DNA from: Bacillota bacterium
GTDB lineage: Bacteria > Bacillota > SHA-98 > Ch115 > JABLXJ01
Direction of reading: 5' to 3'
Assembly: GCA_012839815.1 (NCBI GenBank)
Contig: DUMQ01000137.1
Location: forward strand, 1 to 59,448
Length of the DNA stretch: 59,448 nt
The first letter of the stretch is position 1. Each line of letters starts with the position of its first letter. Both the position numbers and the translations under genes were made by a program. The notes beneath the pieces were generated by a model. It made no database searches, was not told the DNA's origin, and saw only the letters and a list, made by a program, of their open reading frames with translations. Shown here piece by piece: positions 1 through 59,448 of this stretch.

Positions 1-235
1 GCGCCTCCGTTGAAATTTGGCGCGAGGGCCATGCCAAATTTCAAAAGGCCCCGTCACGCAAGCACCGGCAACCCCGGGACGCGCTGGTAAACCGGCACAA
101 ATTAAGGAACCTACACTTAGTCGAGCAGTCCGCTCCGTAATCTCCGGCCGAGAGCTGTTGGGCCGGAGATCAAGGCCGCCTGGCGGGGAGATGCGAGACA
201 CCCCGGCCACTGTGCGGCACTGGTAGCGGTTACCT
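1..235. repeat. Dispersed palindromic repeat, copy A (partial)
   Basis: The window opens inside this element. Visible are the inner hairpin (TTGAAATTTGGC pairing with GCCAAATTTCAA, about 9-43), the right outer arm at about 56-75, a right flank running to the end motif CCTACACTTAG near 120, and an extension. The extension holds a 10-bp hairpin (140-149 with 161-170, 11-nt loop) and, at about 175-214, a segment that is the reverse complement of the sequence preceding copies C and D (GTCTCGCATCTC core). The left half lies outside the window. The element stops about 35 bases past the arsP stop codon. No convincing gene is present here. Confidence 0.85.
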
Positions 236-20255: not shown

Positions 20256-21002
20256 TCAAACCCTGGGGGACAGCCTGCGTCCCTTGAGCTTGCCTCGTCG
20301 CCTCAGGAAATCGCGGACGCGATCCGCCGATGTGTTGATAATAAGGTCTTCAGTCAGTCCGGCTCTCTGCGCAAGCTCGAGGGCAGTATCAAACAGCCCT
20401 ACCCGCGTGGAAATGTGGGCATCGCTTCCTATCACGACCCTTACCCCGTGGCGCGCCGCAAGCCGGGCAAACTTGCAACAATTCTCCTCACTGTGCTTCC
20501 TTGTAATGGTGAGGGAGCTATTGTTTATTTCAAGCAACACTCCAAGATCCTTTGCAGCATTCACGACCTTCTCTATATCTACCTGGTACTCGGGATTGCC
20601 CGGGTGGGCGATGGCATCCACATACGGGTTTTGCATCGCGGCAATCATCGCGTGGGTGTTCTCCTCCACCGTGCCGCCGTCATAACCCGTCCTGATGTGA
20701 AACCCTGCCAGCACAAAATCGAGTGTCGAAAGGGTGCGATCAGGGAGGTCGAGCTCACCTTCGACACTTATTATATTGGCCTCCACGCCGTTCAGGATTT
20801 CAACGCCGAACATCGTTTCGGGGATGACTCTGAGGTTCCCGAAATAATACAGGTGCGGCCCACCGGGAAGATTGGGGCCATGTTCGGTAAAGGCTATCAT
20901 TTCGAGACCCTTCTCAGACGCGGCCCGAGCCGTCTCCTCAATAGTGCTGTACGCGTGTCCACTCGCGATGGTATGAACGTGCAGATCCGCTACGAGCTTC
21001 AT
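20256..21002 (-). CDS. PHP-domain phosphoesterase (YcdX-like), second copy
   Basis: A 248-residue metal-dependent phosphoesterase. Ligand motifs are ADLHVHTIASGHAYS, AFTEHGPNLPGG, GVEANIISVEG, LAGFH, IAHPGNPEY, LEINNSS and VIGSDAHIS, a complete PHP set close to E. coli YcdX. The substrate is not known. It is first in the run PHP-nagA-PHP-rapZ-yvcK. The ATG follows AGAAGG by 6 nt. Repeat copy B ends about 60 bases upstream of the start. Confidence 0.88.
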   Translation of the reverse strand: MKLVADLHVHTIASGHAYSTIEETARAASEKGLEMIAFTEHGPNLPGGPHLYYFGNLRVIPETMFGVEILNGVEANIISVEGELDLPDRTLSTLDFVLAGFHIRTGYDGGTVEENTHAMIAAMQNPYVDAIAHPGNPEYQVDIEKVVNAAKDLGVLLEINNSSLTITRKHSEENCCKFARLAARHGVRVVIGSDAHISTRVGLFDTALELAQRAGLTEDLIINTSADRVRDFLRRRGKLKGRRLSPRV

Positions 21003-21061
21003 CTACTACTACCTTCTCCCCTATTACATGTCTTATGTTATGTCTATATATCCACACTGAC

Positions 21062-21267
21062 TAACTTAGCGCTAAGTGTAACTTCGAGATTACCGCCGTT
21101 TTTCCAGGACTTACGGTGCTTGCGTGACGGGGCCTTTGAAATTTGGCAGGGCCCTCGCGCCAAATTTCAACGGAGGCGCGCCGCAAGCGCGCCGTCCGCG
21201 GAACGCAAGCACCGTAAGTCCTGGGACGTGCTGGTAAACTGGCACAAATTAAGGAACCTACACTTAG
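21062..21267. repeat. Dispersed palindromic repeat, copy B (interior inverted)
   Basis: The element has end motifs CTAAGTGTAACTTC (21072) and GAACCTACACTTAG (to 21267), one mismatch apart as terminal inverted repeats. Outer arms 21104-21125 and 21203-21224 are perfectly complementary over 22 bp. The 77-nt interior carries the TTGAAATTTGGC/GCCAAATTTCAA hairpin (11-nt class loop) and GGCGCGC/GCGCGCC hairpin. Relative to the flanks the interior is in the opposite orientation from copy D. It fills the whole gap between a PHP gene and a GH57 gene, directly touching the GH57 stop codon. Confidence 0.9.
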
Positions 21268-23043
21268 TCATGGACTTATATGACCCTGATGGCTTTTCTT
21301 CGACAAAGATTGAGGAGTTCCTCCTGGCTTCAGACCAAGAAACGCCATCGGGTCAATATCAGGGAACAGCACGTCCGTCTCGGGCCCCGGTCCCAATTCC
21401 CCCAATTCCGCCCCCAATTCGAACTCTCCTCCCAGTACCAGTCCTGATTCCACCATACCCGCCAGCTTCCAAAACCTCTCCCGGTGCTCTGTAAACCTCT
21501 TCGTGGCGTATTCCCTCGCACCCTGAGTTGTAATCAAGAACGGCCAGTCGCTGCTCTGGAGGAGTAAAGCCTCGCGGGCTGCCTGGCGCAATAGGTCCAT
21601 CCCCGCCGGCGCCACGGTGGGAGACACCTCAGCGAACATCCTGGCCAGATCCCTCATCTTCTCCTCAACCGCGTGTATGTCACGCCACATCCATTCCGTG
21701 TCCGAATTCGCCCAGATATAGTGCTTACCGCCCAACCCCCAGGAACTTTCGTGTAACTCTATGGTCTGGTCCGGCGGGTGAGTGCTCAGGTACCCCCCGG
21801 TAGTTGTCAGCTCTATGGCGGGATTCTGAGCCATCTTCTCGAGCACCCTTCCCAGCCACTCGACTCCCTCAAACCACCAGTGACCGAAAAGTTCAATATC
21901 ATACGGGGCAACAAGTATACCATGTCTTCCGGTCTCTTGATGAAACTCCGCCAACAACTGCTCAACAAGCCATGTGAAATGACTTGAATGCTCCTCTACC
22001 CTTCCCCGGGCACCCTCAACACTATAGAGCTCCTTACCATCCAGGTCAACGAGGTGGCTTGTCACCTTCCAGTACTGGAACCCCGACTCGGGATCCCGCC
22101 TGTGAAACTCCCTGTAATTTCCATCCCCCGGGTACCCCCATTCACTCGACCACACCTGCAGCCCCGTCCGCTCGTTACGTCCAAACGCAACAACCGTGCT
22201 CCCTTCGAGGTAATAAGGGAGAAACGTTGTCTTGCCCGTGCGTTCTCGCTCTTGTTGTGTCTCGTCGCCCATCCCCTCGGCAAGATCGACGGGCCCTACC
22301 TTCGTGTACTGGCTAAACGCCCTGCCACCCTCGATAGCATGGGAATCCACGAAGAAATATTCTATACCGAGCTCCTCCAGGAATGACTCGATCCCGCGTT
22401 TAAACTCCGGCCGGGGCTGTGACTCGAGGTTAGACTGCGACTGGGGCTGGGACCGGCGGGGGCGATAGGCGCATTCCGGAAGCCAGGCGCCCCTGGGCCG
22501 TCTCCCGAAGTGTCGCACATATGAGTCGATGCCTATCTTGAGCTGGGCATAAATGGACTCCTCGGTGGAGAGAAGGGGAAGATAGGCGTGGGTTGCGGCG
22601 CTTGTTATAATCTCGATCTCCCCTGAATCCTGCAGGTCTTTGAACGCTCCGACGATGTCCCGCCGGTACCTTTCCGTAAAGCTCCGCTTTATAACCGCGT
22701 AATAATCCCTGTAAAACCGGGCAAGCTCCTTCATCTTAAACTCGTTCAATTCGGCGAATCTCCCAATATCGCCCTCGGCCCTTTTAATCTTATCATCAAG
22801 GTATTGTTCAAACCGTCCCAGCATATAGGGATCGGCAAGTTGCTCTACCAGGACGGGCGTGAGGCCCACCGTGATCCTTACAGGCAGGCCTCTGGCCTTG
22901 AGGTCGTTTAGCACATTCAAGACCGGCAAATACGTTTCCGCCAGGGCCTCCATCACCCACTCCTCTCCGAAGGGCCAGACCCCGGCTTTTCGACAATATG
23001 GTAGGTGGCTGTGTAAAACAAAATTAAAGGAACCAATAGCCAT
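21268..23043 (-). CDS. GH57 family 1,4-alpha-glucan branching-type enzyme (DUF1957), first copy
   Basis: Cytoplasmic glycoside hydrolase family 57 enzyme with an N-terminal catalytic barrel and C-terminal DUF1957 helices, 591 residues. Start of fold: FNFVLHSHLPYCRK. The putative nucleophile is E190 in AWLPECAY and the acid/base D382 in APYDIELFGHWW, so both catalytic residues are present. The family makes alpha-1,6 branches in glycogen. Odd features are a Gln/Ser/Pro-rich insertion right after the nucleophile motif (residues about 196-213) and a Glu/Gly/Leu-rich stretch near the C terminus. The stop codon abuts repeat B. It is divergent from the DUF4912 gene. Confidence 0.85.
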   Translation of the reverse strand: MAIGSFNFVLHSHLPYCRKAGVWPFGEEWVMEALAETYLPVLNVLNDLKARGLPVRITVGLTPVLVEQLADPYMLGRFEQYLDDKIKRAEGDIGRFAELNEFKMKELARFYRDYYAVIKRSFTERYRRDIVGAFKDLQDSGEIEIITSAATHAYLPLLSTEESIYAQLKIGIDSYVRHFGRRPRGAWLPECAYRPRRSQPQSQSNLESQPRPEFKRGIESFLEELGIEYFFVDSHAIEGGRAFSQYTKVGPVDLAEGMGDETQQERERTGKTTFLPYYLEGSTVVAFGRNERTGLQVWSSEWGYPGDGNYREFHRRDPESGFQYWKVTSHLVDLDGKELYSVEGARGRVEEHSSHFTWLVEQLLAEFHQETGRHGILVAPYDIELFGHWWFEGVEWLGRVLEKMAQNPAIELTTTGGYLSTHPPDQTIELHESSWGLGGKHYIWANSDTEWMWRDIHAVEEKMRDLARMFAEVSPTVAPAGMDLLRQAAREALLLQSSDWPFLITTQGAREYATKRFTEHRERFWKLAGMVESGLVLGGEFELGAELGELGPGPETDVLFPDIDPMAFLGLKPGGTPQSLSKKSHQGHISP

Positions 23044-23240: not shown

Positions 23241-24221
23241 TTGACAGGCCGTTTGGATCGAGACCTGAAAAACCAGGAAAAACAGGAAAAAGAGCAAGAA
23301 AGGGAGGTTGAAGAAATCAGCCTCCCTGCCGAGGTTGCAGAGCTCGCTACGATTGAAACCCGGGAAATAAACCTCGCCCAGGATGCCCGGCGCGGCGAGA
23401 TATATCCCCGTTTCATGACGGAGACAGAATATGAGCTTCCCGCCGGTTACGGCGAGACTAAACTGGTTCTCCAGGTTAGAGATCCATACTGGATGCACGC
23501 CTACTGGGAGATATCTGAGGAGACTATACGGGATATTCAAAGAATGCTTGGCCCTTTAAATTGGAACGAGGCGCAGCGGGCCCTGAGAGTCCACGATATA
23601 ACGGGCATAGACTTCAACGGGGCAAATGCCCACTATTCCTTCGACATCCCTATTAACAACGTTGCGAACAACTGGTATATCAATGTAGAACGCCCCAACC
23701 GACGCTATTGTGTGGATTTGGGCGTCAAGAACGAAGCAGGGGATTTCATCCTGATTACGAGGTCAAACCCCGTCCACACGCCGAGGGATGGGATTTCAGA
23801 AATCGTGGATGAGGAATGGATGACGCTGGAGGCCATAGAGAAACTCTACCCCGCGCCATCGCCACGAGGACCAAGCTCTCCCGAATTCATGCGAAGCCAG
23901 GAGATCCAGGGGCGTCTCGAATATGAAGAAGTGGGTTCCGGCGCGGTGGGCGTCATAAGCAGCCCGGGCCCGGGCGTAGCCTACCCACGGAAAAAGGGTT
24001 TCTGGCTCACGGCTGACGTGGAGATCATAATCTACGGCGCCACCGAGCGCGACGCAGCGGTGACGATCCAGGGGATGCCTGTGAAGCTCCGGCCCGATGG
24101 GACTTTTACGGTTCGCTTTGCACTCCCCGATGGCGAGCAGGTTATTCCCGTGGAGGCCGTATCTGCCGGTGGCGAAGACCGGCGCCGGATCACAATGACC
24201 ATAACCCGGAAAACCACCTAA
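23241..24221 (+). CDS. DUF4912 domain protein
   Basis: A 326-residue protein. The N terminus is a charged, probably coiled-coil segment (KNQEKQEKEQEREVEE). The DUF4912 core follows (about 60-200) with LVLQVRDPYWMHAYWEIS, LRVHDITGIDF and NWYINVERPNRRYCVDLG. A C-terminal beta domain has FWLTADVEIIIYGATERDAAVTIQG, resembling an immunoglobulin-like fold. Function is unknown; family members recur beside GH57 branching enzymes and glycosyltransferases, and a glucan-binding role is plausible. The TTG start follows AGGGGGT by 7 nt. Its TAA stop is formed by the first bases of repeat C. Confidence 0.8.
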   Translation: MTGRLDRDLKNQEKQEKEQEREVEEISLPAEVAELATIETREINLAQDARRGEIYPRFMTETEYELPAGYGETKLVLQVRDPYWMHAYWEISEETIRDIQRMLGPLNWNEAQRALRVHDITGIDFNGANAHYSFDIPINNVANNWYINVERPNRRYCVDLGVKNEAGDFILITRSNPVHTPRDGISEIVDEEWMTLEAIEKLYPAPSPRGPSSPEFMRSQEIQGRLEYEEVGSGAVGVISSPGPGVAYPRKKGFWLTADVEIIIYGATERDAAVTIQGMPVKLRPDGTFTVRFALPDGEQVIPVEAVSAGGEDRRRITMTITRKTT

Positions 24222-24480
24222 GTTAGTGCGCAAAAATCTCTGCCCTTTTTGCACTCGCGTAGGGTGTCTCGCATCTCTCCGCCCGGCGGACGCGGCTAAG
24301 TGTAAGTTCGAAGATTACTGACGTTTTTCCGGGGGTTGCCGGTGCTTGCGTTCCGGGGACGGCGCGCTTGCGGCGCGCCTCCGTTGAAATTTGGCGCAAG
24401 GGCCTTGCCAAATTTCAAAGGCCCCGTGCGCAAGCACCGTAAGACCTGGAAAAGTGGCGGTAATCTTTGAACACTCACAT
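24221..24480. repeat. Dispersed palindromic repeat, copy C (hybrid arms)
   Basis: It begins CTAAGTTAGTGC, shared with copy D, then the GTCTCGCATCTC segment and the end motif CTAAGTGTAAGTTC (24296). Conserved arm cores GGTGCTTGCG (24341-24350) and CGCAAGCACC (24429-24438) pair, but the next bases do not: the left arm follows the D version (TTGCCGG side) while the right follows the B version (GTAAG side). The right flank is an inverted left-type flank (GGAAAA..GGCGGTAATCTTTG), not the GCTGGTAAAC type of A, B and D. It occupies the gap between the DUF4912 gene and the GH57 gene. Confidence 0.88.
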
Positions 24481-54264: not shown

Positions 54265-54322
54265 CCGGGCCCTTCTATCGATCCGGGCCCCGGCTTGGGC
54301 CCGGATCGATAGAAGGGCCCGG
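54265..54322. repeat. 26-bp perfect hairpin between the two hydratase subunit genes
   Basis: Arms 54265-54290 and 54297-54322 are exact reverse complements with a 6-nt loop. It begins 9 bp past the large-subunit stop. Both arms mix GC-rich ends with a TCTATCGAT centre. No T-run follows. It would strongly fold in mRNA between two genes whose products must pair. Confidence 0.75.
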
Positions 54323-59183: not shown

Positions 59184-59448
59184 TACTAAGTTAGTGCACA
59201 AAGATTTCTGCCTTTCTGGCACTCGCATAGGGAGTCTCGCATCTCACCGCCAGGCGGACGCGGCTAAGTGTAAGTTCGAAGATTACTGACGTTTTGCCAG
59301 GGGTTGCCGGTGCTTGCGTTCCGGGGACGGCGCGCTTGCGGCGCGCCTCCGTTGAAATTTGGCGCGAGGGCCTTGCCAAATTTCAAAAGGCCCCGTCACG
59401 CAAGCACCGGCAACCCCTGTGACGTGCTGGTAAACTGGCACAAATCAA
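59184..59448. repeat. Dispersed palindromic repeat, copy D (runs to window end)
   Basis: It begins CTAAGTTAGTGC, with the GTCTCGCATCTC segment, then end motif CTAAGTGTAAGTTC (59264-59277). Outer arms 59298-59319 and 59398-59419 are perfect 22-bp complements. The 78-nt interior has hairpins GGCGCGC-TTGCG-GCGCGCC and TTGAAATTTGGC-N11-GCCAAATTTCAA, closed by CGGGG/CCCCG, giving a three-way-junction fold. The right flank (GACGTGCTGGTAAACTGGC) matches A and B. The copy starts 23 bases upstream of amrS and is cut by the window end. Confidence 0.88.

Follow-up and report, generated by a model that had tools for sequence, protein, structure and literature searches.

A short palindromic repeat of an uncultured Bacillota bacterium, here called MITE-1, was found with its interior in either of two orientations between outer flanks that keep their direction. 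The inversions have recurred, the two arms that enclose the interior co-vary, both arms have changed in a coordinated manner at an orthologous site in a congener, and an unrelated MITE behaves in the same way. We consider it probable (at roughly 60%) that template switching or exchange mediated by the arms during replication inverts the interior, and that no dedicated enzyme is needed.

The window, that is, the whole analyzed stretch of 59,448 nt, is one contig (C127) of a 2.8-Mb metagenome-assembled genome in 163 contigs (G000). The top-scoring matches to its RapZ protein come from uncultured Bacillota and share 68% identity. This genome was sampled as stretches around the copies, and the interior motif of MITE-1, the 17-mer CCGTTGAAATTTGGCGC, was counted over the whole 2.8 Mb. 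The motif occurs in 118 places, compared with 0 for the reversed control, indicating that the repeat is not due to chance. It occurs in 27 places in a well-assembled congener (G001), where copies of MITE-1 lie inside contigs of 49-435 kb. Among 148 relatives searched, this congener was the only one in which the motif is repeated; in the others it was never present in more than one place each, and such single matches were at the level of the control. The exact interior 22-mer of MITE-1 had no match in genome_contigs or viral_contigs.

Structure of the repeat and its copies in the window

MITE-1 is about 190 bp long, which is too short for a transposase gene. Its layout is C-TA-AGTGTAAGTTCGAAGATTACTGACGTTTTT (left or L flank), a 22-nt arm, the interior, a second 22-nt arm and GACGTGCTGGTAAACTGGCACAAATTAAGGAACCTACACT-TA-G (right or R flank), with terminal inverted repeats (TIRs) AGTGTA[AG]GTTC.. 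and ..GGAACCTACACT. The interior of 77-78 nt consists of a GC hairpin and a Y hairpin. We refer to the orientation with the GC hairpin towards the L flank as D, and to that with the GC hairpin towards the R flank as B. As DNA, arms and interior are predicted to fold together into a T shape, at -58 kcal/mol (z -11.6) for B and -60.7 kcal/mol (z -10.3) for D.

Copy B occupies positions 21072-21267 of the forward strand as C-TA-[21075-21264]-TA-G. The TA duplications (21073-21074 and 21265-21266) lie outside the MITE proper (21075-21264), and the TIRs read AGTGTA.. and ..TACACT. The left arm (21104-21125, forward strand, 22 nt) is a perfect complement of the right arm (21203-21224, forward strand, 22 nt), and the 77-nt invertible interior between them (21126-21202, forward strand) contains the Y hairpin (TTGAAATTTGGC/GCCAAATTTCAA) followed by the GC hairpin (GGCGCGC). 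Copy D, also on the forward strand (59186-59448), begins with the left end of a second element, MITE-2 (at 59186), continues with a nested MITE-1 from 59264, and runs into the contig end. Its 78-nt interior (59320-59397, flanked by 22-nt arms at 59298-59319 and 59398-59419, all on the forward strand) passes from the GC hairpin to the Y hairpin, and is reversed relative to that of B.

Positions 21129-21214 of B and 59308-59393 of D are 95% complementary, and the flanks CTAAGTGTAA.TTC and GACGTGCTGGTAAACTGGC run in the same direction in both copies. The complementarity and the perfect arms of B bear out the preliminary description, which had noted 22-bp arms around an interior of 77-78 nt that is turned between B and D while the flanks are not. 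The order of D had also been assigned to copies A and C. This holds for copy A (1-122, forward strand), which is cut by the contig start and has the D-like order of GC hairpin, Y hairpin and R flank; the second half of MITE-2 comes next. In copy C (24218-24466, forward strand), a MITE-2 left end with a nested MITE-1, it holds beside the left flank but not on the other side, where a second, reversed L flank takes the place of the R flank (24441-24466 being an L-type end), so that the copy is an L-L hybrid.

The window also contains two further perfect palindromes, at 54265-54322 and 2594-2647, with arms of 26 and 22 bp, respectively, both unrelated to the MITEs. In some short copies of MITE-1, at L174 (C61), L175 (C116) and L176 (C125), and at L275 and L276 in G001, the Y hairpin is missing and what is left of the GC hairpin connects the two arms. 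These copies resemble hairpin deletions.

Relation to IS630-type elements and nesting in MITE-2

MITE-2 is 232 bp long when alone, again too short for a transposase gene, has the TIR AGTTAGTGCGCAAAAAT and its own 22-bp arms (GGGTGTCTCGCATCTCTCCGCC), and is unrelated to MITE-1 in both interior and arms. It often carries MITE-1 at one fixed CTAG site. The composite has been copied many times, and was seen in G000 at, for example, C2:4472-5020, C95:7394-7823, C16:15496-15878 and window positions 59186-59448. Two MITE-2 copies (L174, L284) have the empty site GGCTAGTCGAGCAGG, and filled copies read GGCTA[AGTG...CACT]TAGTCGAGCAGG. This comparison of empty and filled sites indicates that MITE-1 inserted at CTAG with duplication of TA. 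An empty MITE-1 site between the two species was unreadable at copy C, where the spacer has diverged, and the MITE-2 site was used instead.

Duplication of a TA target is a hallmark of IS630/Tc1-mariner elements (PMC2170065), and a preference of IS630 for CTAG has been reported, going by the title of Tenzen and Ohtsubo 1991 as cited in PMC2170065. Judged by its sequence, MITE-1 is a non-autonomous element of the IS630/Tc1-mariner type. The preliminary description had left room for a relation to MITE or to REP/RAYT families. The former can now be specified as IS630-type, with the TA duplication at CTAG established by the empty site. The latter is unlikely, since a Y1 (RAYT/IS200-like) transposase (PF01797) was found in neither G000 nor G001 in searches with positive controls.

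G001 carries an IS630-family transposon (C2, about 149738-150879; L301:883-2024), the transposase of which is split over two ORFs (DDE_3 at 111 bits, and NCBIfam IS630, NF033545, at 155 bits on the second ORF). Its ends (CTAAGTTAGTG.. / CTAAGTTAATGCACAAAAG) are similar to the end of MITE-2, making it a candidate mobiliser. In G000, no match to DDE_3 was obtained, and the transposon of the G001 type was not found. An autonomous partner with ends matching those of MITE-1 was found in neither G000 nor G001.

Recurrent inversion and coordinated change of the arms

Copies were collected from the genome and its relatives, with arms, flanks and interiors compared separately, as the preliminary description had proposed, and both orientations were present in G000 and in G001. 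Full copies of MITE-1 in G000 comprise 32 in orientation B, 13 in orientation D, 1 L-L hybrid and 2 R-R hybrids; those in G001 comprise 15 B and 4 D. The suspicion that B might be the sole flipped copy, and an artefact, is thus dispelled: B is the commoner state. Moreover, the B copy of the window has an ortholog in G001 (L166) which is also in orientation B, clearly indicating that the orientation is not due to one assembly. At this one full ortholog pair the orientation has been kept, and no flip was caught at any orthologous locus. The hybrids, which have two L or two R flanks, lie at window positions 24296-24466 (L-L, C127:24379), and at C7:12353-12657 and C126:10922-11122 (R-R). They arose either through recombination between copies or as errors of assembly.

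The inversion is recurrent, as orientation is distributed over a tree of the flanks in a manner as scattered as shuffled labels. In this tree (L and R flanks, 78 columns, 51 copies), there are 11 changes of orientation, compared with a shuffled mean of 11.7, and at least 3 are forced by well-supported forks; because the flanks are short, the exact number of changes is uncertain. Both states are also found among copies that descend from a single MITE-1 insertion into MITE-2. With nesting on the L side, there are 10 full copies in D and 11 in B; with nesting on both sides, there are 7 in D and 3 in B. Full copies of G000 without a nest signature on either side are 19 B versus 1 D.

Arm sequences indicate which part of the element moves. 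A deletion of 1 nt in the inner arm (CGGTG-TTGCG) is located on the side of the GC hairpin in both orientations. In G001, 14 of the 15 B copies have it in the R arm and all 4 D copies have it in the L arm, and never the other way around; in G000, it occurs in the L arm of 6 of 13 D copies versus 1 of 32 B copies. This association with the GC hairpin shows that the inner arms travel with the interior and that the exchange points lie in the outer arm. Within a copy, the left and right arms agree fully over their outer 10 nt in 23 of 45 cases in G000, compared with a shuffled mean of 7.7 (maximum 18); the corresponding count in G001 is 9 of 19, compared with 1.8 (maximum 7). Comparison of the orthologous B site between the two species reveals 0 differences in either flank (L, 32 nt; R, 43 nt), yet both outer arms differ at 5 of 11-12 positions, with the changes in one arm matching those in the other. 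Since the flanks are untouched and the arms have changed together, either the arm-interior-arm block was swapped or both arms were rewritten.

The interior of MITE-2 with MITE-1 inside it is also found inverted (C7, C8, C56, C112, C131). Counted by junctions across the sampled copies of MITE-2, the common order is represented 62 times (p-a 39, q-c 23) and the inverted order 34 times (q-a 27, p-c 7); junctions that share a copy are linked to each other, and groups of related copies contribute repeatedly to these numbers. The clearest case is the pair L277 and L279, in which the outer flanks are the same and the interiors are opposite.

Arm and flank comparisons (Mantel tests) were made on L and R flanks trimmed of unique sequence. 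Divergence per site of the interior was 0.028 within G000, 0.046 within G001 and 0.046 between the species, compared with 0.10-0.25 for the flanks. Homogenization within species alone would raise the divergence between them, and so the interior may be constrained, e.g., by a function in protein binding or as RNA. A search of Rfam identified no known RNA in the window, and no match to a sigma-70-like promoter was detected at 20950-21350, the region of copy B. The low divergence of the interior is not fully explained by template switching or exchange.

Mechanism, alternatives and known counterparts

According to the mechanism we propose, MITE-1 would spread by cut and paste, inserting at CTAG and duplicating TA, both alone and nested in MITE-2. 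The central palindrome would be extruded as a T-shaped hairpin with a 22-bp stem and two side hairpins. During replication of the palindrome, the growing strand could switch between the near-identical, oppositely facing arms, copy the interior off the opposite strand and then switch back, which would leave the interior reversed and the arms homogenized. A like exchange with another dispersed copy would swap the whole arm-interior-arm block, which could go in either way round. The arms may come close despite the 77-78 nt between them, because the spacer folds into two hairpins. Template switching at the arms of inverted repeats in yeast is known to produce arm homogenization and spacer inversion (PMC8604942), and it is favored here because both signatures are seen. 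Switching within a copy would not be sufficient by itself, as the coordinated swap to an arm haplotype seen elsewhere needs exchange between copies. From these patterns, we infer that the arms act through template switching or through ectopic exchange, as opposed to another arm-dependent route; template switching, gene conversion and short-homology recombination are not distinguishable on the basis of these sequences. The data thus favor the class of mechanism suggested in the preliminary description, in which the arms recombine or the interior flips while it is copied by way of a hairpin. The idea of a free-standing mobile arm-interior-arm module was rejected, since L and/or R flanks accompany nearly every copy, and those few in G001 that have no clear flanks look degenerate.

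Homologous recombination of the RecA type between the arms would have related consequences, with intramolecular crossovers inverting the interior and crossovers between copies generating L-L and R-R hybrids as well as chromosomal inversions. It is in line with the hybrids on C127, C7 and C126, the perfect 22-mers that form the arms of B, and the flipping of MITE-2. However, the inner-arm marker moves with the interior, confining crossovers to the outer ~12-14 nt in marked copies, and such a length is short for RecA-type pairing. Furthermore, full L-L or R-R copies are absent from the better-assembled G001, and the three hybrids may be misassemblies. We regard this alternative as rather unlikely. 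Misassembly could in principle also account for the two orientations, if palindromes were collapsed and joined in the wrong direction in a short-read assembly, and many contigs of G000 do end inside the repeat; hybrids may be chimeric joins. Yet both orientations occur inside the long contigs of G001, and the orthologous B site has the identical orientation in two separately assembled genomes, which leaves an artefact hardly credible. A small number of old inversions, followed by amplification of two fixed subfamilies through transposition and with no flipping ongoing, would explain part of the counts, as the 19 to 1 excess of B among non-nested G000 copies points to amplification. This scenario is nevertheless improbable: orientation does not cluster on the flank tree, supported forks force at least three changes in spite of only 78 columns, and both states occur within one nested insertion, in both species and in MITE-2.

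Site-specific inversion by a serine or tyrosine recombinase of the host or of a mobile element that recognizes the arms, possibly with a regulatory role, would resemble invertons and invertible promoters, which likewise have a small segment between short inverted repeats in both orientations. The strong conservation of the interior speaks for such a switch. On the other hand, the outer arms vary freely provided they pair, unlike a fixed recombinase site, MITE-1 has no sigma-70-like promoter match in copy B, and two families with unrelated arms flip alike. It is the behavior of the unrelated MITE-2 that speaks most strongly against an element-specific recombinase. We find this explanation quite improbable as well, and there is no support for a dedicated invertase or a promoter switch. 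Transposition chemistry was rejected as the cause of the flip, given that Tc1/mariner cleavage proceeds without a hairpin intermediate (PMC2170065).

The inverted terminal repeat (ITR) of AAV, with its flip and flop states, offers the closest design outside bacteria, by analogy of geometry only. As in MITE-1, two small palindromes lie within a larger stem palindrome and occur in two orientations (PMC1131931), and the length of 125 nt (PMC1131931) is close to the 121-122 nt of arm, interior and arm in MITE-1. The palindrome of MITE-1, in contrast, is internal to a double-stranded chromosomal element with flanks on both sides, and is not a genome end. It is very doubtful that the flip is intrinsic to multiplication, with the T-shaped palindrome priming or resolving its own copying like a parvovirus terminal repeat and orientation randomized in each round; if this were true, it would represent a hairpin-replicating route for IS630-type MITEs.

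One genus provides well over 100 natural replicates of hairpin spacer inversion in two unrelated repeat families, and markers within the arms reveal the position of exchange, making template switching at bacterial palindromes directly measurable. The orientation of the interior is an unreliable subfamily character in MITEs, and short-read assemblies break at palindromic repeats of this kind.

Among bacterial MITEs of the IS630/Tc1-mariner type, RUP of Streptococcus pneumoniae, for which mobilization by IS630-Spn1 has been proposed (PMC2229807), is similar to MITE-1 in being shorter than 250 bp, without a gene, and in having short TIRs and a TA duplication. MITE-1 differs from such elements in its core, a T-shaped palindrome with a 22-bp stem in two orientations, and in the nested copy hosted by a second MITE. 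A search of the literature yielded no description of interior inversion in IS630-type MITEs. The view that the design is unlike any described bacterial element is weakened, as the unrelated MITE-2 of the same genome flips alike and spacer inversion is known from other systems (PMC8604942, PMC6444266). The template-switch cases in yeast share arm co-variation and an inverted spacer with MITE-1 (PMC8604942), but their spacers measure a few bases, compared with a self-folding spacer of 77-78 nt here, in more than 100 dispersed copies between which exchange is needed. In chloroplasts, the loop of a stem-loop is inverted between relatives, mostly in non-coding DNA, at unique loci with loops of 2-6 bp and no mobile repeat family (PMC6444266). 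The far greater length of the spacers here, which is greater still in MITE-2 with a nested MITE-1, counts against the mechanism we propose, as does the lack of a flip at any orthologous locus. Spacer inversion itself being known, what is new here is a large collection of natural replicates of it in an IS630-type MITE with a palindromic core.
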